Source: Cytophagaceae bacterium SCN 52-12
GTDB taxonomy: Bacteria; Bacteroidota; Bacteroidia; Cytophagales; Spirosomataceae
Direction: 5' to 3'
Assembly (NCBI GenBank): GCA_001724175.1
Contig: MEDT01000059.1
Location: 1-32,954 of the forward strand
DNA length: 32,954 nucleotides
Shown here one piece after another: positions 2,050 through 27,095 of the stretch (its first letter is position 1; every line of letters starts with the position of its first letter). The translations under genes and the position numbers were made by a program. The notes under the pieces were generated by a model. The model had not been told where the DNA came from. It did not search any database and worked only from the letters and a program-made list of their open reading frames with translations.

Positions 2050-3131
2050 CAGATCTTAACGACGTTACCGGTTTTAACAGATTCGTCGCAGGCAAAGGCG
2101 ATCTGCAGGCTGTTGACAGCGTCCTGTATATGATCTGTCAGGTCGATGTCCTCGCGGATAGCCTTAAGGAAATACCGTTGCTCCCTGTTGCAAAGCTCCT
2201 GGTGATCAGGCTCGTCCTGGAGGTTGATCCAGGTATCTTCTTTGGCAAAACGCTCATTTGCGTCGAGATCGGCATGGTGGATCAGCAGCGATTCTGTTTT
2301 GGTATGCGCTTCGATCGAATCCGATTTCCCGGTACCTCCCGCATCTTTGGCTACGATCGAAACGGATCCTTTAGGACCGAATACGTCCTTGACAAAGAAA
2401 GCGGTTTCGCTCACCATCGGTCCCCAGCCTGCCTCATACCAGCCTACCGATCCGTCTTCAAACCTGATCTGGAGCTGACCGTAGTTGTAGTTGTCTGCCG
2501 GTATATCGTCCGTAAGACGCGCCCCGATCGCATTCACCTGTACCGGCTTGCTGCGAACCATCTGGCACATCACATCTATGTAGTGTACGCCGCAGTCCAC
2601 GATAGGACTCAGGCTTTTCATCAGGTTGCGGTGCAGCGTCCACATCGCCGTATCGCTCTGCTGGTTGAGGTTCATCCTCATTACAAGCGGCTTGCCCAGC
2701 TTTTGGGCTTCCTCTATAAAGCGCTCCCACGACGGGTGATGGCGCAATATATAGCCAACTACAACCTTCTTGTTGAGCCTTTTGGCGGCAGCTGCCACGC
2801 GCGCGGCGGCCGCTACCGAATCTGCTATGGGTTTTTCCACAAAAACGTGGGCTCCGGCTTCCATTGCCTGTATAGCGTAGGCTTCATGAGTATCGGGATA
2901 GGTGGATATACAGACCGCGTCGGGCTTTGTCTCTTCCAGCGCCTGCGTAAAGTCGCTGTAGAGCGCATAGCCCCCGCCAAGCTTTTCATTCAGCGCTTCC
3001 TTGCTCTTTCCTTTTGAAACAATACCTACTATTTCAAAGCCATCTTCTGTGTGATACGCCATCGCATGGGAGCTTCCCATATTACCGGCTCCTACTACCA
3101 GCACTCTCAAAGGTTTAGTTGATTCTGACAT
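2049..3131 (-). CDS. Gfo/Idh/MocA family oxidoreductase
   Basis: This 360-residue protein has the family's two parts. The first is an N-terminal NAD(P)-binding fold with GAGNMG at residues 14-19 and the EKP motif at 99-101. The second is a C-terminal alpha/beta substrate domain with the catalytic D-C-G-V-H-x-x-D pattern at 178-185. Members oxidise or reduce sugars, inositols and sugar derivatives. There is no Sec or Tat leader, so it should work in the cytoplasm on imported material. It is coupled to the following dehydrogenase by a one-base overlap and lies 77 bases downstream of the DUF1080 gene. Such genes commonly accompany DUF1080 genes in sugar-oxidation loci, which supports a joint role, but the substrate is not readable. 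Confidence 0.9.
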   Translation of the reverse strand: MSESTKPLRVLVVGAGNMGSSHAMAYHTEDGFEIVGIVSKGKSKEALNEKLGGGYALYSDFTQALEETKPDAVCISTYPDTHEAYAIQAMEAGAHVFVEKPIADSVAAAARVAAAAKRLNKKVVVGYILRHHPSWERFIEEAQKLGKPLVMRMNLNQQSDTAMWTLHRNLMKSLSPIVDCGVHYIDVMCQMVRSKPVQVNAIGARLTDDIPADNYNYGQLQIRFEDGSVGWYEAGWGPMVSETAFFVKDVFGPKGSVSIVAKDAGGTGKSDSIEAHTKTESLLIHHADLDANERFAKEDTWINLQDEPDHQELCNREQRYFLKAIREDIDLTDHIQDAVNSLQIAFACDESVKTGNVVKI

Positions 3132-3208: not shown

Positions 3209-4000
3209 TCAAAGCGGAATCAATTCCACTTTTTTGACATACATTTCCGCCCCTTCCGACTGGATTTGTATCTTCCCCTTTGAGGGCCTGACATTTACGG
3301 CCTGGTTGACGAGCACGCCGTTCAGGTATAAATCGATGCTGTCGCCTTTTGCTATTACTTCCAGGCGGTTCCATTTTCCGACCGGCTTTTCCACATCCCT
3401 GCTTCCCCTGAAATTGACCACGTCTTTCCATTCCGGGTCGCGGTAAAGCCAGTTGATGCGCCCTTTGTTAATGGTAACAAGCTCCCCGCCAGGCTGGTAG
3501 ATATAGGAAGCGCCCTGCTTTTCAGGCGCCACGGGCGCCGAAAGAGAAAACTTATCGGTACCGTCCCCAACAACGAGGAAATCGCCGGAGCCGCCTTCAA
3601 TCAACTGGCATTCGATGGAATTGATCCACACGCCGCCATACCCGCCGTCCTTGCCCTGCGAATGGATCAGCACCCCGTTGTCGCGCGCGCGGTCTACCCG
3701 CGGCGCATATGTTTTTTCTCCCCATTTGAAATCTACGGTAAGCTTATAATTCTCATATTCTTCGTTGGTGGTAATACAGCCGTATTCCTCTCCCGTTATG
3801 AAAATCATCCCCTTGGAAACGGTAAATACTCCTTTAGGATCGCTGTTCTTACCGGTGGTTTTGAGGAAGGTGTACCATCCGTCGAGATTCTTCCCGTTAA
3901 AAAGGACTACTTTTTTCTTTTTCTGGGCCTGCACCTGGAAACAAGCCGTCAACAGCCATAAAAAGGCAAATATTGCGGTAAATAAATTTCTTCTTTTCAT
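3209..4000 (-). CDS. DUF1080 / 3-keto-disaccharide hydrolase family exported protein
   Basis: This 263-residue protein is essentially one lectin-like (concanavalin-type) beta-sandwich domain of the DUF1080 family. It opens with the hallmark LFNGKNLDGW at about residues 33-42. Further family features are DNGVLIHS, GGYGGVWINSIECQ and a closing segment with VGKWNRLEV and a lysine-linked C-terminal strand. The N-terminal signal sequence is ambiguous: LTAC at 17-20 would make a lipoprotein, while VQAQ at 23-26 would allow ordinary signal-peptidase cleavage. Characterised members of the family act on 3-keto-glycosides, which would fit the neighbouring Gfo/Idh/MocA enzyme. Substrate assignment is inference. 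Confidence 0.85.
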   Translation of the reverse strand: MKRRNLFTAIFAFLWLLTACFQVQAQKKKKVVLFNGKNLDGWYTFLKTTGKNSDPKGVFTVSKGMIFITGEEYGCITTNEEYENYKLTVDFKWGEKTYAPRVDRARDNGVLIHSQGKDGGYGGVWINSIECQLIEGGSGDFLVVGDGTDKFSLSAPVAPEKQGASYIYQPGGELVTINKGRINWLYRDPEWKDVVNFRGSRDVEKPVGKWNRLEVIAKGDSIDLYLNGVLVNQAVNVRPSKGKIQIQSEGAEMYVKKVELIPL

Positions 4001-4040: not shown

Positions 4041-5468
4041 CTACGGCTGCTTTTTCAGATCGTTAAGCAGCGGGAACAGCGTCGCGGTGATCTTTTCAGA
4101 CGCCTGTACCTCGAGGTAGCTGGAGCGGGCCCGCCAAGTTTCATAACCTCCCCAGGAATGCTGTTTGGGCGTAGGCAGGTAACCGTTGTAGCCGTTTGCC
4201 AGGGAAATCGTAAAATTGGAAGCAAACGGGCTTTTCTCCTTTATTTCAAGTCCTATTTCTACAAATACTTCACAGGGGATGGCTGAAATGGCAAGATCGC
4301 CGATGCGGAATGCCTGGATGATGAGGGGCACCTTGTCGGGATATTTGTCGATCAGCACCGACTCCCTCGCATAAATGGCCTCCCTGTCTTTTAATACCTT
4401 ATCCTGGTGCTTCGACAGGATATCGCGGGCTCTCTGCAATTCGGCCGCTGTCGGCTTTCTTACACCGAGGGAGATCTCCTTCTGAGCGGAGGCGAGCGGT
4501 ACCCAGCCGACGAATTGCATGGCGCTCACCGCCTTGTATGCCTCGCCGGCTACCAGGTTGGCCACGCGCTGCATCTGTGCATAGGCGCCGTCGGGTTTCC
4601 AGCTGCCCGATTTCCAGTCGATGTTGTTGATATCGCCGCTTGTACCGTTGGACATGATGCCTACAAAAGGACGGTTCGGGTTGCCATGCCCTACCATCTC
4701 TTTCAGACGCCCCGCGAACATCCCGAAGTAATCCGCCGAAATTTCACCTCCGCCTGTACCGCCTACATAATGCAGCGAATAGTTGGCCAGCACCGCTATC
4801 GGTTCGCCTGTCCGCGCTTTCAGGGCGAGAACGCTTACTTCCGGATCCGTAGGTCCGGCAGGCTCTTTCAGGTCAGGGTTCTTGACGCCCGGGTTCATCC
4901 TTACTTTGTCTACGCCGCCAAACGGATTGGTCATCCCTTTTTCACTTTTCATAAACCAGCGGCGGTTATGTACCTGCGACGCCTCGTAACCCTTGCCCCA
5001 TCCTATTTCGGCAGGCACCAGGTTGTTGTTGGCCCTGATCAGCGCATCGGCGATCCTTTCCGAAAGAAAATCGAGGTAGGCAGGCGAAGGGTCGCTCTGG
5101 AAAACGCTGCATGCAGTTCCGGCGCTGTGCGTATGGGTTGCCGACATCATCATGTTTTCGACGGGAATACCCGTCAGTTCATGAGCCCGCTTCTTGGCTT
5201 TATCGAGCGTCTCTTTATATACCATACACAGATCGGACACGACGATGGCCAGCTTCGTCCTGCCGTCGTCCATCACGATGGCCCTGGCGTGCGTATCGTC
5301 GTGGATATGCTTTACCAGGCCATCCTGCATATTTCCGTTTATGCTATAGCCGATGGGCGGGGTGATCACGCTGACGGCTGCACCCGCCCTGAACACCTGC
5401 TCCTGGGCATGGCCCGCACCGCCTGCAAAAGCCAGGGCGAAGACAATACAGAGTTTATTTAATTTCAT
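4041..5468 (-). CDS. Neutral/alkaline ceramidase-fold secreted hydrolase (copy 1)
   Basis: The 475-residue protein starts with a Sec signal peptide (cleavage near AHAQ, residues 19-22). The rest matches the neutral ceramidase N-terminal domain. Predicted zinc ligands are present: THTHS at 111-115, the histidine of NYSLH at 233, a glutamate in IPCE at 400, and tyrosines in GYLPTP and GGYET (430 and 442). The loop that carries the serine nucleophile in Pseudomonas ceramidase (GDVSPN) reads GDINNI at 278-283, so the serine is absent. The C-terminal Ig-like domain of full-length ceramidases (over 600 residues) is also missing. It is most likely a zinc-dependent hydrolase of another amide or ester. 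It is the most diverged of the three tandem copies. Confidence 0.85.
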   Translation of the reverse strand: MKLNKLCIVFALAFAGGAGHAQEQVFRAGAAVSVITPPIGYSINGNMQDGLVKHIHDDTHARAIVMDDGRTKLAIVVSDLCMVYKETLDKAKKRAHELTGIPVENMMMSATHTHSAGTACSVFQSDPSPAYLDFLSERIADALIRANNNLVPAEIGWGKGYEASQVHNRRWFMKSEKGMTNPFGGVDKVRMNPGVKNPDLKEPAGPTDPEVSVLALKARTGEPIAVLANYSLHYVGGTGGGEISADYFGMFAGRLKEMVGHGNPNRPFVGIMSNGTSGDINNIDWKSGSWKPDGAYAQMQRVANLVAGEAYKAVSAMQFVGWVPLASAQKEISLGVRKPTAAELQRARDILSKHQDKVLKDREAIYARESVLIDKYPDKVPLIIQAFRIGDLAISAIPCEVFVEIGLEIKEKSPFASNFTISLANGYNGYLPTPKQHSWGGYETWRARSSYLEVQASEKITATLFPLLNDLKKQP

Positions 5469-5543
5469 CCGGGTATTAAGATTTGTTATCGAATAGTTGT
5501 AAAATAATATGAGGACCTCACCCCCGGGTCTCCTTTCCTCCCC

Positions 5544-7028
5544 TCACTTCTTAAGCGCCCTTAACTGCTCCAGCTGGCGCGCCACGATTTTGCGCGAAGC
5601 CTCCTTCTCTACCCTGTTGGTCCCCAGCCATGTCTCATAACCGCCCAGCTCATGCTGCTCAGGGGTAGGCAGGTAACCGTAGTTCCCGTTGGCAAGCTCA
5701 ATGGTGAAAGTCGATTTGAAAGGACTCTTCGCCTTAATTTCAAGGCCGGTTTCCGCAAACGTTTCGAAGGGGATCGCAGCGATGCCCAGGTCGCCTATGC
5801 GCAGGGTCTGCATGACGATATCGACATTTTCGGGCCATTTCTCCTGCATCTGGATAGCCCTTTTGGCATAGGTCGGCTCCAGGGGATGGTATTTTTTGAT
5901 GCCGTCCGGGTTGGCGACGACCTCTTTCGCCCTGGCCAGCATTTCGGGAGTCGGCTTTCTTACCTTCAGGTTGAGATTGCTGTAGGCAGCGCCCAGCCTC
6001 ACGTCAGTTTGGTAGGATATCCTGCTATAGTTATCGTATATCGCCTTTGCCACATCGCGGGCTACGATCTGCATTTTCTGGTAGCTCTGCATCCGGTCTG
6101 CCGGCCCTTTTACATTGATGTTGTTGACGTCTCCGGAAGTACCGTTAGACATGATAGCGACGAACGACGGCGCTTTATTGCCGGCATCCATCAACCTTGA
6201 AAACTGCTCTGCAAAAGCACCGAAATAATCGGAAGTGATATGATCGGCAGGAACACCTCCCACATAATGCAGGGAGTAATTGGCCAGCAGCGCGATAGGC
6301 CGCCCGTCGAGCGCCTGGACAGATACGAAATACACCTCGGGGTCGGTCTTCCCGGCCGGCTTCAGCAGGTTCGGATTCCCCACCCCGGGGTTCATTCTTG
6401 CCTTGTCCTGGCCGCCGAAAGGGTTGGGTACGTCGGTCCCGTCCTTCATCAGCCATCTCCTGTTGAAAACGTGCTGGGGGACATCTACAGAGCTCCACCC
6501 TATTTTAGCCGGCTCCTTCTGGTAGATAGCCCGCCTGACGCCGTCGGCGATCCGCCTGGCGACAAAGGTCTGGTATTCGTCCAGCCCTTTGTCGTAGTTG
6601 TAGTTCATACGCTCGTCCCCCACGCTGCTCGCGCTCACGCTCGAGTGGGTATGGGTAGCGGCCATCAGCACATTTTCGGCTTTCATGCCCGTTTTTTCCC
6701 CGATGAGCTTCCTGGCATAGTCGAACACTTCCCGGTTGATAGACAGGTTGTCGACGATCACGATCGCTATCTGCTCCTGCCCATCATCCAGTACCAGGCA
6801 TTTGGCATATAATTCATCGTGGATGTACTTGGCCTCGGGAGGAATGCCGAAATTCCCGACTATTCCTCCTCCCAGAAAAGGAGTGATATTACTGAGCGCC
6901 GCGCCTGCCTGAAGCACGGGGGTCGCGGGCTGCGCCGGCAAGCTACCGGCAAACAGGCAGAGTACCGCCAATAACAGCCCCGAAGCACGATTGCTGCAAA
7001 ATTTGAATTTAAGGTAAATGGTTTTCAT
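5544..7028 (-). CDS. Neutral/alkaline ceramidase-fold secreted hydrolase (copy 2)
   Basis: This 494-residue protein has a long N-terminal leader ending near PAQP (31-34), then a ceramidase-type domain. Metal-site motifs are intact: THTHS at 125-129, NYSLH with H254, and a C-terminal IPFE...GYLPTPEQHELGGYET segment. The nucleophile loop reads GDVNNI at 299-304, with asparagine in place of the ceramidase serine. By eye it is closely similar to copy 3, sharing long identical stretches such as DGRPIALLANYSLHYVGG, so the two look like a fairly recent tandem duplication. Intergenic spacing is 36 bases upstream and 75 downstream, consistent with one operon. The substrate is unknown and an actual ceramidase activity is doubtful. 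Confidence 0.87.
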   Translation of the reverse strand: MKTIYLKFKFCSNRASGLLLAVLCLFAGSLPAQPATPVLQAGAALSNITPFLGGGIVGNFGIPPEAKYIHDELYAKCLVLDDGQEQIAIVIVDNLSINREVFDYARKLIGEKTGMKAENVLMAATHTHSSVSASSVGDERMNYNYDKGLDEYQTFVARRIADGVRRAIYQKEPAKIGWSSVDVPQHVFNRRWLMKDGTDVPNPFGGQDKARMNPGVGNPNLLKPAGKTDPEVYFVSVQALDGRPIALLANYSLHYVGGVPADHITSDYFGAFAEQFSRLMDAGNKAPSFVAIMSNGTSGDVNNINVKGPADRMQSYQKMQIVARDVAKAIYDNYSRISYQTDVRLGAAYSNLNLKVRKPTPEMLARAKEVVANPDGIKKYHPLEPTYAKRAIQMQEKWPENVDIVMQTLRIGDLGIAAIPFETFAETGLEIKAKSPFKSTFTIELANGNYGYLPTPEQHELGGYETWLGTNRVEKEASRKIVARQLEQLRALKK

Positions 7029-7064
7029 TGGACTAGTATAAAAATTAAAAAAACATCTATCCTC

Positions 7065-8546
7065 TCACTTAAATGCCTTCAACTGTTCCAACAGCCTGTC
7101 GGTGATCTTACGGGATCCCATTTTTTCCACATAATTGGTCCCAAGCCAGGTTTCGTACCCGCCCAGCTCATGATGTTCGGGAGTAGGCAGATAGCCGTAC
7201 CATCCGTTGGCCAGTGAAATTGTGAACGTAGACTTAAAAGGACTTTTTTCCTTGATCTCAAGACCTGTTTCCGCAAAGGTTTCAAATGGAATGGAAGCAA
7301 TGGCCAGGTCATCAATTTTCAAGGCAAGCATGACAGCCTTTACCTTTTCCGGCCATCGCTCCTGCACCCGGATCAAACGCTGGGCATAAAAAGGTTCCAG
7401 GGGGTGATACAATTTAATTTTATCCGGGTTTGCCAGTACTTCCCGGGCGCGTGCGAGCATTGCGGGAGTAGGTTTCCGGACTTCCAGGTCCAGTTCCGAA
7501 AAAGAAGCCCCCAGCGCTACGCTGGTCCTGTACTGAATCCGGGAATACTGCTTAAAGATCTTATCAGCTACATCCTTCGCAACAAGCTGCATTTTTTGGT
7601 AAGCGCCCATTTTTTCCGCCGGCCCCCTGAAATTGATATTATTGACATTTCCTGAAGTACCGTTAGACATCATCGCCACGAATCCGGGCGCTGCTTTATC
7701 GCCGCCCACCAGTTTCTTGAAGTAATCGCCAAATACACCGAAATAGTCGGATGAAACATGGTCGCCCGGAACGCCGCCCACATAGTGCAGGCTATAATTC
7801 GCCAACAACGCAATCGGGCGCCCATCGAGCGCCTGGACTGATACGAAAAACACTTCAGGATCGGTGGGACCGGCCGGTTTGTCAAGCGCAGGATTCGCCA
7901 CACCCGGGTTCATTCTTACCTTGTCCTGGACACCGAAAGGGTTGGTCATATCCGTACCCGGTTTCATAAACCAGCGTCGGTTAAACACGTGTTCCGGGGC
8001 GTTTACCGAGCCCCACCCTATCTGGGCGGGTTCCCGGCTATAATATGCCCGCTGCACGCCATCCGCAATCCGGCGCGCTACAAACTGCTGGTACTCATCC
8101 AGTTGTTTGCCATAGCTAAAATCTCCGGTTTGCTCTCCGGTCTTGATAGCGCTGACACTGGAATGCGTATGAGTGGCCGCCATCAGCACATTTTCTTTTT
8201 TTATTCCCGTGCTTTTCTGAATGATCTCCCGCGCCTCATCGTACACCTCGCGCGGTATCAGGCAATTATCGGCAATTACTATCGCAATCTGTTCAGAACC
8301 ATTGTCCAAAACCAGGCTTTTGGCATACAATTCGTCATGAATATATTTGGCAACCGGCGATCCGAAGCCTCCGATCAGCACATTATCCAGGAACGGCGTA
8401 ATATTGCTCATCGAAGCGCCCGCGCGCAGCGGCCCCGGCTTATGCTGAGCGGACAAGACCAGCGGGGAAACGCCTAGAATGATTGCCAGCATAGCAGCTG
8501 TGCGCCTACCGGCAGAGCGGATACGCGTTAAGGATGGGGTTTTCAT
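7065..8546 (-). CDS. Neutral/alkaline ceramidase-fold secreted hydrolase (copy 3)
   Basis: This 493-residue protein has an N-terminal signal sequence (cleavage near LSAQ, residues 31-34) and the same single-domain layout as copy 2. THTHS (125-129), H254 of NYSLH and the C-terminal glutamate and tyrosine motifs of the zinc site are kept. The loop at 299-304 reads GNVNNI. Here even the aspartate of the family GDxxxN motif is replaced, besides the missing serine. It may therefore have a different substrate from copy 2 or be catalytically impaired. It starts 27 bases after the stop of the propeller-cytochrome gene and is the first of the three tandem genes to be transcribed. Confidence 0.87.
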   Translation of the reverse strand: MKTPSLTRIRSAGRRTAAMLAIILGVSPLVLSAQHKPGPLRAGASMSNITPFLDNVLIGGFGSPVAKYIHDELYAKSLVLDNGSEQIAIVIADNCLIPREVYDEAREIIQKSTGIKKENVLMAATHTHSSVSAIKTGEQTGDFSYGKQLDEYQQFVARRIADGVQRAYYSREPAQIGWGSVNAPEHVFNRRWFMKPGTDMTNPFGVQDKVRMNPGVANPALDKPAGPTDPEVFFVSVQALDGRPIALLANYSLHYVGGVPGDHVSSDYFGVFGDYFKKLVGGDKAAPGFVAMMSNGTSGNVNNINFRGPAEKMGAYQKMQLVAKDVADKIFKQYSRIQYRTSVALGASFSELDLEVRKPTPAMLARAREVLANPDKIKLYHPLEPFYAQRLIRVQERWPEKVKAVMLALKIDDLAIASIPFETFAETGLEIKEKSPFKSTFTISLANGWYGYLPTPEHHELGGYETWLGTNYVEKMGSRKITDRLLEQLKAFK

Positions 8547-8573
8547 GTGGTTTAGGTTTAGAGTTCCTGCTGC

Positions 8574-11534
8574 TTAATTCGCTCCTTTCAGGAAAGCGAT
8601 CAGATCCAGTAAATCCTGGCTGCTCATGGTCTGCTCGAGCCCGTCGGGCATTAATGAAACACCCGGATTGTTCAGGGTCTTGATATTCTTGCGCAAAATC
8701 GTTTCTTCCGTCGAAAAGGCAGTCCTGATGGTCAGGGAGTTTTCAGTTTCCGACACGAGCCAGCCGGTAATGGTATTCCCGTCGTTCGTTTCTACATTCA
8801 GCGCCTGGTAAGCGGGATATACTTCGTAATTGGGGACCAGGATATGAAGCAGGATCGCATCCGGCGGCTGGTTGCGGATACCCGAAAGATCGGGACCAAC
8901 GTTCCCTCCTTCCATGCCTGCAAAAGTATGGCATGCCGTGCAGGTCCTCTGGAACACCTCTTTCCCGTTTGCAGCTACCGCTTTTTCGGCAAGCTTAGGC
9001 CTGAAGTCCTGGTAGACTTTCATCCGTCCGCCCGATTCGAGCTCTTCAAAATAGGCGGCAGCTTTCTTGCTGATCGACTCGTCCTTGTGCTTGATGAGCC
9101 GCTGGCGATCGTTTGAAGTAATCTCTGCCGCGCCTATCACCTTGCTTTCCAGTCCGTTAAAAAGGACGTTGATAAAATCAGGATTGGAAACCAGCGCCGC
9201 TATGACGGAGTTCTTCACCCGGGGAGTATAGGCCGACCAGGTATTCTTCGTGGTCATCAGGGCCGCTCCTTCAGGCGCTCCCAGCTTGGTAAGGGCAGAA
9301 ACAGTTTCGATCTGCAGCTCGGGCGGGTTTTTAGCATCCAGCGTCTTTTGAAGGGTAGATTTTACTTTTGCAAAATCATAATACCCCAGCAAAGCCACGG
9401 CATCTTTACGCTGCGAAACGGGAAGGTCTTCCCGAAGCGCGACGCTGTTCATGCTTTTCATAAAGGCATCGAGCTGCTTTAAGCCCGTCCGGTCGGGCCC
9501 GCTTTCCAGCAATGCCTGCAGCGCCGGCTTGTTTCCGCTGCTGATCTCGTTTCTTTTTGACACTCCTTCGGCCAGACCCAATACCGTGGCAGCGCGCCAG
9601 TCTTCTCCTCCTTTCTGGTTAAGCGTTTCGGTCAGCAGCGCTCTGCACGCATCGACCGTCGCGGCATTTCCGAAAAGCTTTCCCATATCCTGCATGACAA
9701 GGGCGTAAGCGCGTGCGTCTCCTCCTTTCTGCTTCCGGAATGCGGCCAGAAATTCGGGCAGCCTGTCGGAAATCCCGCTTAATACGGCATTCCGGCACCA
9801 CTTATCTTCCCCGTCACGTGCGGCAATTTTCGCCAACGCTTCTACTGAAGCCGGGGTTTTCTGGTTGCCCAGCGCAAGGGCGGTCATAAACCTCACCCTT
9901 TTGTCGGGATCGTCCGCTTTTTTGGCCAGTAAATCCCCCGGTAACCCATCGATCGAACTGTTCTTATCGGTCAGCCTGACGGCCTGCTCCCGCACACCCG
10001 GATCGGGGTCGTCAAGCGCCCTGACCAGCAGTGAGGCATCCAGCGCATCCAGGTGGCTCAGCAGCCATAAAGCGGCAGCCCGCGACTCTGGTACGGCAGA
10101 GTGGGCAGCCATCACTTTGAGCTCCTGTTTATATTCATTTCCCTTATCCTGCAGGATCATCCTGAACGCGGTTTCCCTGTGCCATTCGTTACGCGAGCCG
10201 AGGGCGCCCATCACTTTCTGAATACTTGAAAAATCCGGCTTAGCCAGCGCGTTTTCCTTTTGACCTTTACTGTAGATCCGGTACAGGCGTCCGTCGGTCT
10301 TGCCGCTTTCAAAATCGAGCAGGTGCCTGGCCTCTTCGGGAACGTACGACGGGTGATCTATCACTTTCCGGTACATATCCGCCAGGTACAGCGACCCGTC
10401 GGGACCGTGAGTCAGGAAGACCGGGCGGAACCATTCGTCGGTAGACGCGAGGAACTCCTTCGTATCGTAGGCCAGCGCCGAGCGGAATCCCGCCCCCTCA
10501 GGCTTCATCACCTGGCGCTGCACCAGGTTCTGGGCCGGCTCGCAAATAAAGACGTTGCCTTTATGGTCGCCGCTCATCCGGTCGCCGTTGTAGATAAGGA
10601 GCCCGCACGCCGAAGTGAAAGTGCCCGTATGCGACAGTCCCATCAGCTTGGGTATGAACTCAGCTGTAGTAACGGCCCCGCTGATGGGGAATACCTTCGC
10701 ATTGGCCTCGACATCGGAAACGTTCTGGTAGGTTTCCGTAAACATCAGGGATGGGTTTCGTTTCAGGTGCCACGGCTCGATCATCATCTGCATGACAGGA
10801 TGCCGGTTGGAAGTCCCGAAACGCCGTCCGAAGGGGTCGAATGCAAGCCCGAACTGGCTTCTCCCGCCGGTATTTTCAAATACGAAAGTTTCCGGGTTGA
10901 ACCTGCCGTCGGCAGAGGTAAAGCTTACGGCTTCTCTTTCGGGATATTTGGGAGAGGTAATCTTGCCGCCGTTCAGCCCGCTGGTCACATACACCCAGCC
11001 GTCCAGCCCCAGTATAGGGTGGCTCACCCTGATCTGCGCCGTCTTGTCGGAGTTGAAGCCGGTCAGCACCACTTCCTTAATGTCGGCCTTGCCGTCGCCG
11101 TCGGTATCCTTGAAATAGTAAATATCGGGAGCGCAGGTAACAAATACCCCTCCTTTCCAGGGGAGCACCCCGTTCGGATAAGTCAGCCCCTCCGCAAATT
11201 CGTAGCGGGTCTCGAACTTCCCGTCTTTGTCGGTATCCCTGAGCAGGGCTATCCTTCCGATCGCGGGGGCTTTCGAGCCGTCTATGGGATCGGGATAGCC
11301 CCGGTCTTCGACCACGTACAGGTCATTACGTTCGTCAAATGCAAAAGCCACCGGATCAATGACCAGGGGCTCCGAAACTACCAGTTCTATTTCCAGCCCC
11401 TCTTCCAGCCTGAAGCTTTCCAGGGCTTTCTTCAAACGGTCGGAATTGTCGTCATTCAACATCTTCACACCATGCTTGGTTGTCAAAGCAAAAGTGCACA
11501 TGCATGCCAGGAGAAATAAGATTTTAATCTTCAT
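8574..11534 (-). CDS. Secreted beta-propeller/HEAT/cytochrome c protein (PVC-type membrane-bound dehydrogenase family)
   Basis: This 986-residue protein has a signal peptide (about 1-18) and three regions. Residues about 40-425 form a six-bladed propeller of the putative membrane-bound dehydrogenase type, with calcium-loop-like DTDKDGK and DTDGDGK motifs. Residues about 440-840 are alpha-helical HEAT-like repeats. The C-terminus is a cytochrome c domain with the heme site CTACH at 865-869 and a likely methionine ligand in SLMPDG about 95 residues later. The architecture matches PVC-type heme-binding proteins. It probably passes electrons from oxidation of a sugar or alcohol to the respiratory chain. 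The natural substrate and any quinone cofactor cannot be read. It follows the sulfatase after a 339-base gap, so it may have its own promoter. Confidence 0.88.
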   Translation of the reverse strand: MKIKILFLLACMCTFALTTKHGVKMLNDDNSDRLKKALESFRLEEGLEIELVVSEPLVIDPVAFAFDERNDLYVVEDRGYPDPIDGSKAPAIGRIALLRDTDKDGKFETRYEFAEGLTYPNGVLPWKGGVFVTCAPDIYYFKDTDGDGKADIKEVVLTGFNSDKTAQIRVSHPILGLDGWVYVTSGLNGGKITSPKYPEREAVSFTSADGRFNPETFVFENTGGRSQFGLAFDPFGRRFGTSNRHPVMQMMIEPWHLKRNPSLMFTETYQNVSDVEANAKVFPISGAVTTAEFIPKLMGLSHTGTFTSACGLLIYNGDRMSGDHKGNVFICEPAQNLVQRQVMKPEGAGFRSALAYDTKEFLASTDEWFRPVFLTHGPDGSLYLADMYRKVIDHPSYVPEEARHLLDFESGKTDGRLYRIYSKGQKENALAKPDFSSIQKVMGALGSRNEWHRETAFRMILQDKGNEYKQELKVMAAHSAVPESRAAALWLLSHLDALDASLLVRALDDPDPGVREQAVRLTDKNSSIDGLPGDLLAKKADDPDKRVRFMTALALGNQKTPASVEALAKIAARDGEDKWCRNAVLSGISDRLPEFLAAFRKQKGGDARAYALVMQDMGKLFGNAATVDACRALLTETLNQKGGEDWRAATVLGLAEGVSKRNEISSGNKPALQALLESGPDRTGLKQLDAFMKSMNSVALREDLPVSQRKDAVALLGYYDFAKVKSTLQKTLDAKNPPELQIETVSALTKLGAPEGAALMTTKNTWSAYTPRVKNSVIAALVSNPDFINVLFNGLESKVIGAAEITSNDRQRLIKHKDESISKKAAAYFEELESGGRMKVYQDFRPKLAEKAVAANGKEVFQRTCTACHTFAGMEGGNVGPDLSGIRNQPPDAILLHILVPNYEVYPAYQALNVETNDGNTITGWLVSETENSLTIRTAFSTEETILRKNIKTLNNPGVSLMPDGLEQTMSSQDLLDLIAFLKGAN

Positions 11535-11873
11535 TGTAGCTGCCTGTAAATACCAGGCTTTTCAACTTTTAAATAATGTGTTTACAACCGGCCCTGAATT
11601 TTTGCAGGAATGTCGGGACAGCCGGGATTAAGAATTCCGCACCGAAAACTTCACTTGAAATTTTCTATCATAAATGCGAATAATCGTAGTGGTTCGGTAA
11701 AAGGTTATACTGAGAGTAATGCATTTTAAGGGAAAGGATTGATTATCGGGATAATATATGGGATCCATTCTAATAAAATCAACAAACCGGCTTTTTTGAT
11801 AAGTAAAGAATTTCAGCTGCAACACGCGTTGTTGACGGCAGCGTTCTTTTTACGTTATGTTTCGTCGAAAACA
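11535..11873. other. 339-base intergenic region without a supported gene
   Basis: This AT-rich gap separates the sulfatase from the propeller-cytochrome gene and is the longest gap inside the catabolic block. A minus-strand frame of 65 codons lies at 11628-11825, but its composition is basic and low-complexity and it matches nothing I recognise. I found no match to the TAnnTTTG promoter element on the minus strand and no strong terminator hairpin. A promoter for the downstream half of the block could lie here, but I cannot point to it. Confidence 0.6.
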
Positions 11874-13364
11874 TTACCTTTTATAATAATTGAATGCCTT
11901 TTTCTTTCCCGCAGGCCGCTGATTTTCACCTGGCTGTCCGAGGTCGCCCAAATCTTTTCTTCCACGCCCGGCCAGCTCATTTAGCCTGCGGACCACGTCC
12001 GGATTATCTGCTGCCAGGTTGTGCCTGGCCCCCGGATCTTCTACCACATTGAAAAGAAGAGGCTGATCGCCCTGCCCTTTTTTAAAAAACGGGTGTCGGT
12101 CGAAAGTTTCAAGAGGTAAAAAGAGTTTCCAACAGCCGCTGCGAACGGCCTGTAACTGCTGCTGCTCATAGTAAAAGAAAGCGTCATAAGGGGAAACTGC
12201 CCCTGACTTACCTTCTATCAAAGGCCAGATATTGAACCCATCCGTTGCGCGGCCGATGGTCCCGCCGGCCAGATAACTCAAAGTCGGCAGCAGATCCATA
12301 GTGCTTGCCATTTCATAGCAAGTAGTACCTGCAGGTATCCGGCCAGGCCCCCACATAATGGCAGGCACCCGGAACCCTCCTTCTGAAGTAGTGTAACCCC
12401 GTCCGTGCAAAGGCAAATTTGTACCCATTTCCACACTCTCCGGATCTTTCCCCATTGGAGAACCGTTGTCAGAAGTGAAGATCACGATCGTATTCCCCGA
12501 AATTCCCAGCTCCACCAGCTTATCCATTATTTTTCCTACAGACCAATCGAGCTCTTCCACGCTATCGCCCCACGGGCCGCCCGCGCTTTTGCCACGGAAG
12601 CCGTCTGAAGAAAAAGGCTGGGTAGTGCTGCCTGGCATAGCCTGGGGCATATACAGGAAAAAAGGAGCATTCCGGTTTTCGGAAATATATTCCAAAGCTT
12701 TTTCGGTATACTTCCTTGTGAGCATATTGCGATCTGTGCCCCATTCTACTATCTCTTCATTCACCATGAGCGGCAGCTCGGGCCATCGATCGCCGTCATA
12801 TCGTTTTCCGAGCTTCCTGCCTGTTTCGCGGGTCATATCGTCACTGTACGGGATCCCGTAGAAATAATCGAACCCCTGCTTTACCGGAAGGAAGTCCGGG
12901 TGATCTCCCAGATGCCATTTCCCGATTATTCCTGTACGATATCCCGCCGTTTTCAATACTTCCGCGATAGTTATTTCCCCGATGTCGAGTCCGTAGGGAG
13001 ACAACGGTCGAAGCACGGCTCCGTCCCGGTCGTTCCAGTGCAGCCCGACACGCTGGGCATAACAACCGGTCATGAGCGACGCCCGTGAGGGGGTGCAGAC
13101 ACCCGAGCTTACATAAAAATGGGTAAACCTGCGGCCTTCCTTTGCCATCCTGCTGAGATGAGGGGTACGGTTTACTTTCGACCCGAAAGGCTCTGTATCC
13201 CCATAGCCCAGATTGTCACAGAGGATGATGATAAAATTGGGCCGATCAGAGGGAGAGACAGCATTCGCTCTTTCATTACCGGCCATGATCCAATATGCCA
13301 GGAAAATTCCTGCTATCCGCCAGGATACAGATATACTACAGAAACCATTTGTCTTCATGAGCAT
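11874..13364 (-). CDS. Type I sulfatase (arylsulfatase A-like, family S1)
   Basis: This 496-residue exported protein has a signal segment at about 12-35. It carries the formylglycine maturation motif C90-T-P-S-R94, the GKWHLG motif at 148-153 and SDNG at 298-301, so it is a formylglycine sulfatase cleaving sulfate esters in the periplasm or at the surface. The first metal loop reads CDNLGYGD where many sulfatases have DDxGYGD. The segment that usually reads PHxxPHxPL reads PQAMPGSTTQPF (240-251), and the usual active-site lysine before the TTxEGG motif is R322. These changes suggest a distinct subfamily. M3 (13358) is an alternative start. The gene lies 14 bases after the Tat-exported hydrolase, clearly in one operon. 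Confidence 0.9.
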   Translation of the reverse strand: MLMKTNGFCSISVSWRIAGIFLAYWIMAGNERANAVSPSDRPNFIIILCDNLGYGDTEPFGSKVNRTPHLSRMAKEGRRFTHFYVSSGVCTPSRASLMTGCYAQRVGLHWNDRDGAVLRPLSPYGLDIGEITIAEVLKTAGYRTGIIGKWHLGDHPDFLPVKQGFDYFYGIPYSDDMTRETGRKLGKRYDGDRWPELPLMVNEEIVEWGTDRNMLTRKYTEKALEYISENRNAPFFLYMPQAMPGSTTQPFSSDGFRGKSAGGPWGDSVEELDWSVGKIMDKLVELGISGNTIVIFTSDNGSPMGKDPESVEMGTNLPLHGRGYTTSEGGFRVPAIMWGPGRIPAGTTCYEMASTMDLLPTLSYLAGGTIGRATDGFNIWPLIEGKSGAVSPYDAFFYYEQQQLQAVRSGCWKLFLPLETFDRHPFFKKGQGDQPLLFNVVEDPGARHNLAADNPDVVRRLNELAGRGRKDLGDLGQPGENQRPAGKKKAFNYYKR

Positions 13365-13378
13365 ACAAAGTCGTCAGC

Positions 13379-14968
13379 TCAGCTCAGCTCGGGAGCCACG
13401 CTGCCGTACTCCCAGGGCTTACCTTTGAATTCCGGGGCGGGCCTGCCTTTCGGCGCCTCGCCGGGCTTCAGCTGCCGCGCAAGATCTACCCCGATCGCCG
13501 CCATGCGTGTTCCTGCGTCGGGTACCAGGTTGCTGTACAAGGTCAGGCGGGTTTCATAGCCTCCTCCCCCGGCCGCCAGCGCCTGCTCGGTCGGTACGTA
13601 GCCTACACATCCGTTGGCCAGCATCGATATGAAGGTATATTCAAACGGGCTGTTCAATTTGATGTCCAGCCCGAACTGGCAGAAATATTCTGCGGGGTTT
13701 GTAATAATGGCTGCCGGGCCTATCTGGATAACCTGGACCTCGACCGGTACCGTCGGTTGTCTTTTGGCCATTGCGTCCAGCATGACCGTCTCCTTGGCAA
13801 AAGTCCATACCGTGGTGCCTACTTCTTCGGGCTTCTTTTTGACAATGGCCACGCTTTCCTTCACCTTTTCCGGCGACGGCAGACGGCGTTTCATATTTTC
13901 CCGGTGAACTTTATAGGCTACCGGGGCCAATGTTCCCCTGGGCATGTCCAGCAGCACCTTCACGGCTTCCGCCCCTACCCTGGCGCCCACAAAACGGGCC
14001 CATTCCTCGCCGGCACGGTTGACAAATACATTCCGGTTGTCGACCTGCGTCACATCGCCTGCCGCTCCCTGTATGAACACCACGACGCAGTCGGGCCCGA
14101 ATGCACCCCGGATGGTCTGCTCCAGGTAATAAACCCAGTTGGCCGAGGCGCCGCCCGGGTTGGTCGTCGTATGACAGGTATAGTTAACGATGCAGCCGAT
14201 GCATTTTCCCTTCTCATCCCAGGCCCCTATCACGCCAACTTCCGGGTCTATCGGGCCGGCAGGTTTTACGATCTCCGGGTTCAGCTGACCGGGATGGGTA
14301 TAAGTGAGCCCGTTTTTCATGAAAAAGCGCCTGTTAAAGGCAACTTTGTCCTCTATTCCGCGACCAATGCCCAGCTCCGCCGGACCGGCTTTGCCGTTGG
14401 CTTCCACCACTGCCTTTACCACCTGCTCCTCGACGGTTTTCAGGTAGTCGGCATTGGCGCAGGAAGACTTCTCGTATGCAAGCTCTTTCACAAGCGGATC
14501 CGCCCAGTCGAACTCCCCGGGCTGAACCATCCCGGTAGGCCCCGAAGAATGGGAATGGGTAGCGGCGATCAGGACGGCGTCTGCCGGGATCCGGGTTTGT
14601 GCCTCTATCTTTTTCCTGGCCGAAGCTACCAGCGACGCCGGCACCATCAGCGCATCTACCGCAACGACCGCCACGCTTCCCGAACCGTCCTTAAATACCG
14701 AAGCTCTTACTTTACAGGGGTCGTGGATCGTTTTATGGAATACCTTCCCGTATCCGCCCGGCTGCTCCATGCCCAGTTTGGGGGTTATGTCCTGCTCGGA
14801 GAACCCTGCCCTTGCGGCATCCTGCAATACCTGCCGCCCGGCGGAAGGCTTTACCGCAGGCCGGGCGCCGGCTTCAGACATGCCTGCGGCCGCCAGCCCC
14901 AGGACGGACGTTCCTGCCAAAGATTTTTTAAGAAAGTCCCTGCGGCTGTCGATGTATCCTTTTTTCAT
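13379..14968 (-). CDS. Tat-exported ceramidase-fold hydrolase (copy 4)
   Basis: This 529-residue protein begins with a twin-arginine leader (SRRDFLKK at residues 8-15, then a hydrophobic run to about 35), unlike the Sec leaders of the three other copies, so it is probably exported folded. The ceramidase-type domain keeps THSHS at 137-141, H266 in NYTCH, a glutamate in NPAE and a late GGGYET motif. The nucleophile loop is GDVTQV at 304-309, with threonine at the serine position. It is clearly more distant from copies 1-3 than they are from one another. It is the first enzyme gene after the SusD1 gene, separated by a strong hairpin. Confidence 0.87.
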   Translation of the reverse strand: MKKGYIDSRRDFLKKSLAGTSVLGLAAAGMSEAGARPAVKPSAGRQVLQDAARAGFSEQDITPKLGMEQPGGYGKVFHKTIHDPCKVRASVFKDGSGSVAVVAVDALMVPASLVASARKKIEAQTRIPADAVLIAATHSHSSGPTGMVQPGEFDWADPLVKELAYEKSSCANADYLKTVEEQVVKAVVEANGKAGPAELGIGRGIEDKVAFNRRFFMKNGLTYTHPGQLNPEIVKPAGPIDPEVGVIGAWDEKGKCIGCIVNYTCHTTTNPGGASANWVYYLEQTIRGAFGPDCVVVFIQGAAGDVTQVDNRNVFVNRAGEEWARFVGARVGAEAVKVLLDMPRGTLAPVAYKVHRENMKRRLPSPEKVKESVAIVKKKPEEVGTTVWTFAKETVMLDAMAKRQPTVPVEVQVIQIGPAAIITNPAEYFCQFGLDIKLNSPFEYTFISMLANGCVGYVPTEQALAAGGGGYETRLTLYSNLVPDAGTRMAAIGVDLARQLKPGEAPKGRPAPEFKGKPWEYGSVAPELS

Positions 14969-15156: not shown

Positions 15157-16785
15157 TCACCATCCCGGGTTTTGAGTCAGCTGCGGATTGAGCGTAATCT
15201 CCTGCAAAGGAATAGGATTGAGATAAAGCTTATCGTCCCATTTCCTGGCCGTATAGCCCGGGTACAGGACCCTGTTGGCGCCCGTTGCCGGGTCTACCGC
15301 CCCCTGGATCGTTTTTGGATTCTCAAGTACCTTGCCGGCTTTCCACCGTACCAAATCATCCCAGCGGTTGCCCTCAGCGCAGATCTCCAGGCGGCGTTCC
15401 CTCCTGATCTCGTTCAGAAGCGGCGATATCGCCATACCCCAGTCCGGCCAGTTCGGATCTGTAAACCCTACCGTCGTCTTCAGGTGCGGCATGCCTACCC
15501 TGTCGCGCAGTTGGTTTACCGTTTTATCCAGCACTTCCTGTGTACATTCGTTGAGCTCGGCTTTTACTTCGGCGTAGGAAACCAGGACTTTACCGTACCT
15601 GTAGACGAAGTCGTCGGTGGTCGAAGTGCTGGGAAGCCTGTCTCGTTCATAAGGGCTGTACCCCTTGATGATGTAGTAGCTCGTAGGACAGTAATTATTC
15701 TGGAACTCCGGCATGGTTTTGTAGTTGGTCGTCCCGTCGTCGAAAATACGGTAGGGGCGCTTCTCCTGGTAGATAGACTGCTCCATGCGGGGATCCCTGT
15801 TCACAAATTCGTCCGCAAATTTCTTATCCCCTTTATAGAGCGGGCTGATCGCAATCGGGAGGCCGTCGGTACACAAATAAGATTCGACAAAGTCCTTGCT
15901 GTAGCCGGTATACGGCTCGCCGAGCTGGCGCACATTGTTGTGCATACGCTTGTCGGTGATGTAGCGCTGTACAAAAATCCCTTCCGGGTTTCCTTTCAGC
16001 TCATACTGCACAAAAAGGTCGAAATAGTCTTTATCGGGCTTGCCGGTGGACCATACCGCAAAGCGGCCCGAGCTGATGATCGACTCATAGGCGGCAGCGG
16101 CTTTTTTGAGCAGCTCCTCGTGCCCGCCGCCCACGTTGTGGTACTTCCTGAATGTCCCCTCGTACAAGGCTATGTCTCCTTTCAGGTTAAGCGCGGCAAA
16201 TTTGGTAAGACGATCTTCAGCCGAGGTTTCGGGTAAATTTTCTATCGCAAAATCGAGGTCCGCCAGCATGTTGTTCACCACGGTCTCACGCGGGTCGCGG
16301 GGAGCGTTGAGCTCTTCCGACTCCGTATCCAGGCTCCTGGACAGCCAGGGGACTTCTCCGAACTTCTTCAGCTTATCGAAGTAATAGAAAGCCCGGAAAA
16401 ACCTCAGCTCTCCGTGGGCGAGCTTCAGCGTCGCGTCTTCGGGTACGCCTGCAATTCTCTCAAGCGCATAATTGACCCTCCTGATCTGCAGCCAGTCGGC
16501 CTTGCCCCAGCTGCCGCCGGAAGAAGGGACCGGGGTTTCGTTCCAGGTATAGGTATTCCGGCTGCTGGGCACCTGGTTGTCGCTGAAATTGTCCAGCGAG
16601 TACCACGCCAGGCGGGCATCAAACAACGTAGGATAAAACTGGCTGGCGTACATTTTAAAATCCGCCCCGGTCTTCCAGAAATTGGTATCGCTTATTTTGT
16701 CTTCCGGGAATTTCTCCAGGAAATCGTCATTACATGCCGTAAGCGAAAAGATGGATACTATCCCTGCCAAAAAGTATTTTTTCAT
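15157..16785 (-). CDS. SusD-family (RagB/SusD) surface lipoprotein, pair 1
   Basis: This 542-residue lipoprotein has a short signal peptide with lipobox LTAC (Cys18). Asn-Asp-Asp follows the cysteine, the type of acidic export signal that sends Bacteroidota lipoproteins to the cell surface. The N-terminal region (DFLEKFPEDKISDTNFW) and the helical TPR-like body with ALNLKGDIALY are typical of SusD. The C-terminus contains the conserved IRRERRLEICAEGNRWDDLVRW segment, recognisable at about residues 455-476. It binds substrate over the SusC1 pore, and its gene begins 21 bases after the SusC1 stop. The ligand cannot be predicted from sequence. Confidence 0.93.
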   Translation of the reverse strand: MKKYFLAGIVSIFSLTACNDDFLEKFPEDKISDTNFWKTGADFKMYASQFYPTLFDARLAWYSLDNFSDNQVPSSRNTYTWNETPVPSSGGSWGKADWLQIRRVNYALERIAGVPEDATLKLAHGELRFFRAFYYFDKLKKFGEVPWLSRSLDTESEELNAPRDPRETVVNNMLADLDFAIENLPETSAEDRLTKFAALNLKGDIALYEGTFRKYHNVGGGHEELLKKAAAAYESIISSGRFAVWSTGKPDKDYFDLFVQYELKGNPEGIFVQRYITDKRMHNNVRQLGEPYTGYSKDFVESYLCTDGLPIAISPLYKGDKKFADEFVNRDPRMEQSIYQEKRPYRIFDDGTTNYKTMPEFQNNYCPTSYYIIKGYSPYERDRLPSTSTTDDFVYRYGKVLVSYAEVKAELNECTQEVLDKTVNQLRDRVGMPHLKTTVGFTDPNWPDWGMAISPLLNEIRRERRLEICAEGNRWDDLVRWKAGKVLENPKTIQGAVDPATGANRVLYPGYTARKWDDKLYLNPIPLQEITLNPQLTQNPGW

Positions 16786-16806: not shown

Positions 16807-19800
16807 TTAGAAATTGATATTGGCGCCCAGGGAAAGCGACTTATACAGCGGGTAGGAGCTCGGCCCCGGCAGCTCCGGATCCGAGATCTTGATCATCTTG
16901 GTGGCGGTCCACAGGTTTGCCCCCGTGAAAAATACCTTGATGCGGTCCATCCCTATTTTCCGGCTGACATCTGCCGGAATGGTATATCCGAACGTCAGCT
17001 GCTTTAATCTCAGGTAGGCTGCGTTCTGCAAAAAGCGGCTCTGAACGGCCGTGATATCGCCGGCGCCGGAAATAATCGGCCTCGGGAAAAATGCATCCGG
17101 GTTTTCCGGCGACCAGTAGTCCATCGCCGCTTTCGAAATCCCGACCCATTCGTTGGAGTACTGCGTAAGGTAGTAAAGCGTCGACATGTTAAGGTCGCGC
17201 TTCGCCACGCCCTGGAAGAACAGGTCCAGGTCGAAACCCTTCCATTTCCAGTTGGTGCGGAAACCATAGCTGTATCTCGGTGTGTTGTTGCCGATAACGC
17301 TCATGTCTCCGGGATTGCTGAGCGTTTGCGCGCCGCGGGTTATTTTCCCGTCGCCGTCCAGGTCTACCATCCACAGGTCGCCGGCCTGGCGTTTCCTCCC
17401 GTTGATATTCGACTGGTCGAGCGCGAGGGCCTCTTCGTCGGTCTGGAACAGCCCGCCGGTGGTCAGCCCCCATATGCTTCCCAGGTTTTGTCCTACATAG
17501 TAGTCGGTAATCAGCCCTGAAGGGTTACTGAATTTGGTGATTTTAGCCGAATAGTCCGAAAGGATAACCGTCGCTTCGTAGCGTACCTCCCCGATCTTGT
17601 CGCGCCATTCGATATTGAGGTCGAAACCCGACGTTCTCATATCCGCCGCATTGGCCCGCGGCTCGGTAACAGCCAGGACTGCCGGAAGGGTCTGCGACTT
17701 TGTAAGCATGTCGCGGGTATCCCTGCGGTACACGTCGAAGGAAGCGGTCAGCTTGTTCGTAAAAAGCGACAGGTCAACACCGAAGTTCATCTGGGAAACC
17801 GTCTCCCATGTCAGCGTCGGGCTTACCAGCTCGGGTGAGTAAACCGACATCGGGCGCTCTCCGTTGACCAGGTAAGGAACCTCCTGCGCGCTCAGCGTCG
17901 CGATGTACGGGTAGAAGATCGGGTTGCCTGCGGCATCTACCAGAAGTTGGTTGCCCAGTGTTCCGTACGATGCCCTGAACTTTAAATCGCTCAGCCAGCT
18001 GCTCGTCGAAGACATAAAACCCTCTTTGGATACCCGCCATCCCAATGAAACGGAGGGGAAGAAGCCAAAGCGGCTCTTTTTCGGGAAACGGGATGTACCG
18101 TCATACCGGCCGTTAAACTCGAGCAGGTACTTGTCGTCGTAGCTGTAATTGAAACGGGTAAATGCACCCCTGATCGCAAACTCGTTCAGCCCGTCGGATG
18201 CGAACCTTTCGCCGGATGCCAGGCTCATGTAAGGGATATCGTTGATGATCAGGTTGCGGCGCTCTGCCTTGGTCCATGCATAGGATGCATTTTCCTGGTT
18301 AAAGCCCACCATCAGCTTTACATAATTCTTTCCGAACGTATTGCTGTAGTCCCCGTAAGCATTGAAAACGTAATAGTTATCGTCATAGTTAGTCCTGATC
18401 ACCCTGTTCGGATTAGATCCTCCGTAGTACCCCGACACATCGCCGTTCACGTTATAGAAGGGAATAAGCGCCAGGTAAGACATTTCGGCCGTAGACTTTG
18501 TATTGAACGAATAATCGACATTGAACGTGGTATTGCGGATGGGGGTCAGCGTGGCACTTCCCGTCAGCCATACGTCATTGACTTTCCGCGTACGTTCTCC
18601 CCCGTCTTTGATGAACTGGGCGGGATTGCCGATCGATCCCTCGTGCGTCCATTTCCCGTTGGGATCATACAGCGGCTGGGTGGAATAAACGTTGGTCTGG
18701 TAGATCGTCCCGGTTTCAGGGTATGAATTACGGAACTGATCGTCGTTGGGCGGATACCGCTTGTTGCTGTTATTGACCGATATCTTGGTCCCTACCTTCA
18801 GCCAGCTCAGCACTTCGTAGTTGAGATTGGTCATCAGGTTGTAGCGGTTGAATTTCTCCTTGAACAAGTCCCTGTTGGTGAGACCGCCCTGGTAGATGTA
18901 CGACAGCGAGCTGTAATAGTCAAATTTGCCCGACCCGCCCGAAACGCTGGCCGTATGCTGCTGCATGGGATACCGCTTGTTCATCAGGATATCCTCCCAG
19001 TTGGTGTTGGCCACCCCTGTCCACTCGTTGAGGTTAGAAGGGTGAATGATGGCCGACGGCTGGCTCGGATCGTTGTAATGGGCCATCATGGCATTCACCA
19101 TGATGTCGTCATAATACGGCCGGCCGTTTATCCGCATGTAAGCCTCGTTCATATAGCCGATCCGGTCTCTGGTATCGATAAACTCGATCCGGCTCGTCGG
19201 CTCATTGGAAGTAAGGATAGAGGAGACCGATACGCTGGGCCTGTCCTTTTTCTTACCACTTTTGGTAGTAACCAGGATCACCCCATAGGCAGCCCGGGCT
19301 CCGTAAATTGCCGCAGAGGCAGCATCTTTCAGTACCGTTACGCTCTCTATATCATTGGGACTGAGCAGGTTGATATCCATCGGGATCCCGTTTACCAGGA
19401 TCAGCGGCGAGCCGCCGTTTATGGAAGTATTCCCGCGGATATTGAAGGTAGCCCCCTGCCCGGGAGAGCCTGTGCCCGGAGAAATGTTAAGGTTGGATAC
19501 AGTTCCCTGCAATCCCTGTCCCAGGTTAGTGATCGGCCTGCTTTCCAGCACCTCCGAGCCTATCGTCGATACTGCGCCGGTGAGGTTGACCTTTTTCTGG
19601 GCGCCGTAACCTACCACGACCAGCTCTTCCAGCGATTTGTTGTCTACCTGCATGCTGATTTCCAGCGACGTCTGGGAGCCTACCGTTTTTTCCTGCGTAA
19701 AATATCCCACGAAAGAAAACACGAGCACCGCGCTGCCGTCGTCGACGGTAAGCTCAAAATTCCCGTTTTCATTGGTGGTCGTCCCTTTCTGGGAACCTTT

Positions 19801-26861: not shown

Positions 26862-27095
26862 ATGAGCACGGCAGAATTGAAGATCAGCCTTATAAACAAA
26901 ATAACAGGTCTTACAGACAACGCGTTGCTGGAGGAGATCATGCGTATAGTGAATTTTGAAACCGATAGCGTAAAATTCGAGCTTAACAGCGACCAGAAGA
27001 ACGCAATAAATATTGCCCGGGCCCAGATACAGAACAATGAATATCAAACCAATGAGCAGGTGGAAATAGAAATGCAAAAATGGTTAGAAGAATAA
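26862..27095 (+). CDS. Antitoxin of a type II toxin-antitoxin module
   Basis: This 77-residue protein is acidic and mostly helical. Its N-terminal segment (MSTAELKISLINKITGLTDN) and C-terminal helix ending in EIEMQKWLEE are typical of short antitoxins in Bacteroidota that precede RelE/ParE-type toxins. It overlaps the toxin gene by 16 bases, which supports the pairing and implies coupled translation. It would neutralise the toxin by direct binding and may repress its own promoter at 26808-26838. It is on the plus strand, opposite to all surrounding genes, as expected of an inserted module. Confidence 0.75.
   Translation: MSTAELKISLINKITGLTDNALLEEIMRIVNFETDSVKFELNSDQKNAINIARAQIQNNEYQTNEQVEIEMQKWLEE

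Follow-up and report, generated by a model that had tools for sequence, protein, structure and literature searches.

In a 32,954-nucleotide stretch of Cytophagaceae bacterium SCN 52-12 (contig MEDT01000059.1; hereafter the window), four genes, here called cer1 to cer4, encode exported proteins with the fold of neutral ceramidases. We consider it fairly likely that these proteins are zinc hydrolases of the neutral-ceramidase superfamily whose targets are acyl or lactone bonds in carbohydrates. On our best reading, they are part of a large, uncharacterised and carbohydrate-directed subfamily found in Bacteroidota, Planctomycetota, Verrucomicrobiota and Acidobacteriota. A sequence-only reading of the window had singled out the same genes because their products lack the serine of the ceramidase motif, which it took for the catalytic nucleophile. 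As laid out below, this serine probably does not act as the nucleophile in neutral ceramidases, and the case for a substrate other than ceramide comes from the genes that accompany, or are fused with, the cer genes and their relatives.

Fold and catalytic residues

Profile searches placed cer1 to cer3 over the cut-off of the Pfam family PF04734 (neutral/alkaline non-lysosomal ceramidase) and cer4 slightly under it (29.1 versus 32.1 bits). The NCBI equivalog for neutral ceramidase, NF041649 (cut-off 1200 bits), scored cer1 at 27.9 bits and gave no match to cer2, cer3 or cer4. When cer1 and cer4 were compared with the PDB by phmmer, the only sensible match for either was 2zws, the ceramidase of Pseudomonas aeruginosa (PaCD). 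AlphaFold2 models built from alignments of fetched loci had a predicted local distance difference test score (pLDDT) of 94.9 for cer1 and 88.8 for cer4. Foldseek searches of the PDB with these models ranked PaCD (2zws and 2zxc) and human ASAH2 (4wgk) at the top, with E-values of 1e-25 to 1e-30 (1.3e-30 and 7.4e-28 for cer1 and cer4 to 2zws; 1.7e-28 for cer1 to 4wgk), while the best non-ceramidase match reached only 3e-4 or weaker. The template modelling (TM) score to PaCD, by query, was 0.72 for cer1 and 0.63 for cer4, at 18–19% identity in the structural alignment.

All residues of the catalytic set are retained. In the numbering of the 2zws chain these residues are H97, H99, R160, H204, E411, Y448 and Y460, of which H97, H204, E411 and Y448 are the zinc ligands; the motif serine, within GNLSPN, is at chain position 250. 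Mapped on 2zws, the predicted zinc ligands of cer1 are H112, H233, E400 and Y430, and this H, H, E, Y set is invariant in cer1 to cer4, as the sequence-only reading had expected. Equally invariant are the pocket residues H114, R169 and Y442 of cer1, which correspond to His99, Arg160 and Tyr460 of PaCD and, by way of the PaCD alignment, to His196, Arg257 and Tyr591 of the human enzyme; the zinc ligands match those of human ASAH2 through the same alignment. In contrast, none of the four loops (GDINNI, GDVNNI, GNVNNI and GDVTQV) fits the serine motif G(D/N)xSPN. Phmmer pairs the cer1 loop TSGDINNI with NAGNLSPN of 2zws, and an alignment of the four proteins has Asn281 of cer1 at the serine position, where cer2 and cer3 likewise carry Asn and cer4 carries Thr. 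One detail of the earlier reading needs correction: GDVSPN, which it gave as the Pseudomonas motif, is the human and plant version (NLGDVSPN in human ASAH2; PMC6952831).

The cer proteins also differ from the known enzymes in architecture. PaCD has a C-terminal domain, and its chains count 630–646 residues versus 475–529 for the cer proteins, whose alignments to 2zws stop at about chain residue 470; the short domain noted from the sequence is thus borne out. Human ASAH2 has a further subdomain of 30 residues and, at its C-terminus, an Ig-like domain (PMC6952831). PF04734 matches that span just the N-terminal part are a known trait of short bacterial PF04734 proteins (PMC4443539), annotated as 'neutral/alkaline non-lysosomal ceramidase N-terminal domain', and cer1 to cer3 fall among these, with no structural difference. 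By eye rather than with a predictor, we judged the leaders of cer1 to cer3 to be of the Sec type and that of cer4 to be of the twin-arginine type (SRRDFLKK); an SRRxF leader was present in four of five Bacteroidota cer4 orthologs.

Gene neighbourhood, fusions and substrate

The cer genes lie in a locus of carbohydrate-utilization type. On the minus strand, the order is sigma factor, SusC, SusD, FecR, SusC, SusD, cer4, sulfatase, PVC-type heme-binding protein, cer3, cer2, cer1, 3-keto-disaccharide hydrolase (DUF1080), Gfo/Idh/MocA oxidoreductase and a 3HCDH-type dehydrogenase. The set of cer4, cer2 or cer1 with PVC-type, DUF1080 and Gfo genes recurs, whole or in part, in six other Bacteroidota loci: L021 and L022 (Chitinophagaceae), L036, L040 (Lunatibacter), L061 (Dyadobacter) and L062 (Membranihabitans). 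In the Dyadobacter locus the order SusC-SusD-cer4-PVC-cer2 is retained at 77–82% identity to the window. Two further companions of PF04734 genes are recorded here as observations in their own right. A cytosine/purine-type permease (PF02133) is present in cer clusters of Lunatibacter (L143, 8127–9485) and Membranihabitans (L062, 3581–4963), which hints that the product contains nitrogen or is small and polar. In the Lunatibacter locus L040, a formylglycine-generating-enzyme-like protein (PF03781; 4936–6093) is encoded immediately upstream of a PF04734 gene, and no sulfatase was seen in that stretch.

To put the linkage in numbers, we counted PVC-type genes (TIGR02604) around PF04734 genes in four genomes. 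The statistics come from search tables in which contig ends and kinship were ignored, and the figures are approximate. Thirty-six of 68 PF04734 genes had a TIGR02604 gene at 10 kb or less, and this proximity exceeded expectation in each of the genomes (p = 0.0014, 0.0005, 0.03 and 0.003). PF04734 matches of any kind occurred in 14 of 198 sampled Bacteroidota genomes, and across these 198 the two families co-occurred, with PVC-type proteins in eight of the 14 (Fisher p = 8e-6).

Gene fusions tie the fold to sugar-degrading enzymes as well. A 765-residue open reading frame of Lunatibacter (L143, 11088–13382) joins a cer1 ortholog (64% identity over 466 residues) to a C-terminal DUF1080 part that is 65% identical to the 3-keto-disaccharide hydrolase domain protein of the window. 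Other PF04734 members are fused with a glucuronoyl-esterase-like domain (Dyadobacter), with a BD-FAE esterase domain (Verrucomicrobia) and, in two further cases, with laminin-G/ConA-like domains. Elsewhere in the window's own genome, PF04734 genes neighbour a polysaccharide deacetylase that matches CBM6 weakly, a GH28 gene and GDSL/GCE-like esterases. GCE-like domains recur next to or fused with PF04734 genes (L144, L150), and the window itself holds, at 28327–30684 on the minus strand, a 785-residue protein that contains a pair of alpha/beta-hydrolase units; the first matches fungal glucuronoyl esterase (PF22244). A fungal protein offers a further carbohydrate link: JGI 64397 of Trichoderma reesei, a secreted member of the PF04734 family, is induced by straw alongside carbohydrate-active enzymes, and a role in cell-wall breakdown was suggested by its authors (PMC3750697). 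It has the association with such enzymes in common with the bacterial cer proteins. A paper that assigns a function to the bacterial PF04734 clade was not found in a literature search covering few subscription journals.

Since the cer proteins are encoded beside sugar-degrading enzymes, and some relatives are fused with such enzymes, acyl or lactone linkages in carbohydrates are their probable targets. The carbohydrate imported by the SusCD pair would be an oligosaccharide or a glycoside. Once it is in the periplasm, a zinc-bound water together with His114, Arg169 and Tyr442 would hydrolyse one of its acyl-oxygen or acyl-nitrogen bonds. Candidate bonds are an O-acyl ester, an N-acyl linkage or a lactone that arises once the PVC-type heme protein has oxidised a sugar. 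Glycan breakdown may then be completed, by oxidation and elimination, through the 3-keto-disaccharide hydrolase and the Gfo/Idh/MocA enzyme.

In the narrowest version of this proposal, C1 of a sugar would be oxidised by the PVC-type protein, and the lactone formed in this way would be the periplasmic substrate that the ceramidase-fold protein opens. The linkage and co-occurrence with PVC-type proteins, and the cer4-PVC-cer2 unit conserved in Dyadobacter, fit such a division of labour. However, the adjoining 3-keto-disaccharide hydrolase indicates oxidation at C3 rather than C1, and ester cleavage is equally compatible with the fusions to esterase-type domains, so that we regard this special case as rather doubtful.

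Less probable still is that the cer proteins are true neutral ceramidases, or lipid N-acyl amidases, that accept Asn or Thr in place of the motif serine and whose substrates are sphingolipids or N-acyl lipids of bacterial or environmental origin. The absence of a serine that probably does not serve as nucleophile is no argument against ceramidase activity, and the shared fold and complete catalytic set are what a ceramidase would be expected to have. Yet several hosts carry about 18–22 PF04734 matches per genome, and NF041649 scores reach at most 28 bits against 1200. The context of SusCD loci, PVC-type heme proteins, 3-keto-disaccharide hydrolase, Gfo/Idh/MocA enzyme and sulfatase argues against ceramide, as do the fusions to carbohydrate-enzyme domains. 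Both lines of evidence uphold the earlier suspicion that the ceramidase name misleads for these members of a SusCD locus, and that their substrate is probably another one.

The motif serine across the superfamily

The sequence-only reading had derived its own conclusion differently: with the nucleophile gone, the chemistry was thought to have changed, leaving zinc hydrolases unlike ceramidases. The serine is indeed replaced in all four cer proteins, and Ser354 of the human enzyme had been named an active-site residue in earlier work, going by the wording of a review ('previously identified active site Ser354'; PMC6952831). According to the same review, however, the crystal structure places Ser354 at the base of the pocket, where it stabilises Arg257, and the proposed catalytic residues of human neutral ceramidase are His196, Arg257, Tyr579 and Tyr591 (PMC6952831). 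Cer1 to cer4 have counterparts of each of these.

We surveyed the position in 142 superfamily sequences. These tallies pool a set of related loci with hits of hidden Markov model searches of the own genome and the phylum; the former is biased towards the clade with Asn at this position (N-clade), because its DNA patterns were derived from NRRWFMK-like stretches, while the latter are free of that bias. The serine position was held by N in 106 rows, S in 8, A in 8, T in 7, R in 4, M in 3, V in 2, and E, G or K in a few. The zinc ligands of the same rows, in contrast, were nearly uniform (H 142, H 141, E 135 with D in the other 7, Y 142). All 142 rows also had the second pocket histidine. Mapping the loop residues on the phylogeny, a check which the earlier reading had proposed, showed Ser to be scattered, with eight changes for eight rows. 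A candidate for a replacement serine, Ser277 in the TSG(D/N) loop, is shared by the N-clade (105 of 142 rows), but PaCD has Ala there.

This survey suggests, at the level of sequence comparison, that the motif serine has a positioning role; Asn281, or Thr in cer4, may assume that role near Arg169, rather than replace a nucleophile. Since the position varies across the superfamily and the catalytic set of cer1 to cer4 is complete, loss of the serine says little about their chemistry. The argument from a missing nucleophile is thus unsupported: a pure Ser-to-Asn loss story is ruled out by the same two findings, and a change of chemistry brought about by the loss is improbable. It is very improbable that some members retain the fold only and bind carbohydrate or metal without catalysis. 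The many paralogs, and the pocket residues lost from some distant ones, might suggest as much, but cer1 to cer4 keep every zinc ligand and pocket residue, and these are near-invariant across phyla.

Several observations weigh against the interpretation favoured here. Linkage and fusion indicate a shared pathway, not a reaction, and roughly every second PF04734 gene lacks a PVC-type gene inside 10 kb. The pocket arginine is absent from exactly those five of the 142 rows that have Val or Met at the serine position, as a positioning role would predict, but the five form one clade and hence amount to one or two evolutionary events. Bacteroidota are able to make sphingolipids, and lipid amides are for this reason possible substrates of some paralogs.

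Two divergent forms deserve separate mention. The clade without an equivalent of Arg160/Arg257 (L019, L141, L106, L112 and L136) has GGMV or GGLM loops and possibly performs another chemistry or is inactive. No bona fide ceramidase (NF041649 above its cut-off) was detected in the 198 Bacteroidota genomes; a 777-residue Bacteroidota protein (L101, genome G101) gave the best NF041649 score found, far under the cut-off, and has Glu at the serine position (GSEGDVEPN).

Lineages of the cer genes and implications

Two trees, one of 142 rows and one of 54 rows computed with IQ-TREE, were used to follow the descent of the four genes. Cer1 to cer3 fall into a strongly supported clade that spans Bacteroidota, Planctomycetota, Verrucomicrobiota and Acidobacteriota and whose loops mostly read TSG(D/N)xNN. 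Within it, cer1 clusters with orthologs from Chitinophagaceae, Membranihabitans and Lunatibacter, while cer2 and cer3, 67% identical to each other, both group with a single Dyadobacter gene. Cer4 belongs to a separate clade with GDVTQV-type loops and has its own orthologs in other genomes. The tandem duplication proposed from the sequence therefore holds for cer2 and cer3 only; cer1 and cer4 are old separate lineages in both trees, which rules out simple tandem expansion for them. Likewise, the genes do not form one tandem array, as the PVC-type and sulfatase genes separate cer3 from cer4 (Table 1). The own genome has 22 PF04734 matches (in an assembly 79% complete, 5.1 Mb), Lunatibacter and Membranihabitans have 18–19, and Dyadobacter has 10.

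Table 1. Position and properties of the cer genes and their neighbours in the window.
Feature	Position	Strand	Properties
3-Hydroxyacyl-CoA dehydrogenase-type (3HCDH) dehydrogenase	1057..2049	minus	PF02737; 73% in Membranihabitans cluster L062
Gfo/Idh/MocA oxidoreductase	2049..3131	minus	PF01408; 81% identical orthologs in clusters L021/L022
3-Keto-disaccharide hydrolase domain protein	3209..4000	minus	PF06439/DUF1080, 106 bits
cer1	4041..5468	minus	475 residues; ceramidase-fold; Sec-type leader; loop TSGDINNI; PF04734 44.6 bits
cer2	5544..7028	minus	494 residues; ceramidase-fold; loop TSGDVNNI; PF04734 49.3 bits
cer3	7065..8546	minus	493 residues; loop TSGNVNNI; PF04734 49.0 bits; duplicate of cer2
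PVC-type heme-binding protein	8574..11534	minus	DUF7133 beta-propeller (PF23500, 401 bits); TIGR02604 271 bits; HEAT repeats; one CTACH heme site (CxxCH)
Sulfatase	11874..13364	minus	PF00884 176 bits; CTPSR formylglycine motif
cer4	13379..14968	minus	529 residues; divergent; twin-arginine-type leader; loop AAGDVTQV; PF04734 29.1 bits
SusD-type outer-membrane binding protein	15157..16785	minus	PF07980 153 bits; upstream of cer genes, same direction; 82% in Dyadobacter L061
SusC-type TonB-dependent transporter	16807..20307	minus	82% in Dyadobacter L061

The closest solved structures to the sulfatase are steryl/arylsulfatases and carrageenan sulfatases. Between the sigma factor and the second SusC gene, a two-gene unit lies on the opposite strand (26862–27376, plus): a 77-residue open reading frame without Pfam match overlaps a ParE-type toxin gene (PF05016, 36.7 bits), and the two probably constitute a ParDE-like toxin-antitoxin pair.

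For the family as a whole, the 'ceramidase' label on such proteins reflects a profile match; no tie to ceramide was found here, and some genomes hold about 20 copies. In practice, the cer proteins should not be called ceramidases: the observation that first drew attention to them was real, its mechanistic premise outdated. The survey of the serine position adds support from sequence to the structural view that this residue is not the nucleophile. The fusions and the linkage point to a concrete, testable function, namely the hydrolase step of oxidative sugar catabolism. Tentatively, we propose that a widespread class of ceramidase-fold zinc hydrolases has been recruited to periplasmic oxidative glycan breakdown, in which a PVC-type heme dehydrogenase may oxidise the sugar, the ceramidase-fold enzyme open a lactone or strip an acyl group, and the 3-keto-glycoside hydrolase cleave the product. 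If carbohydrates are the true substrates, the cer proteins would represent an unrecognised family of carbohydrate esterases or lactonases with the fold of a lipid amidase.

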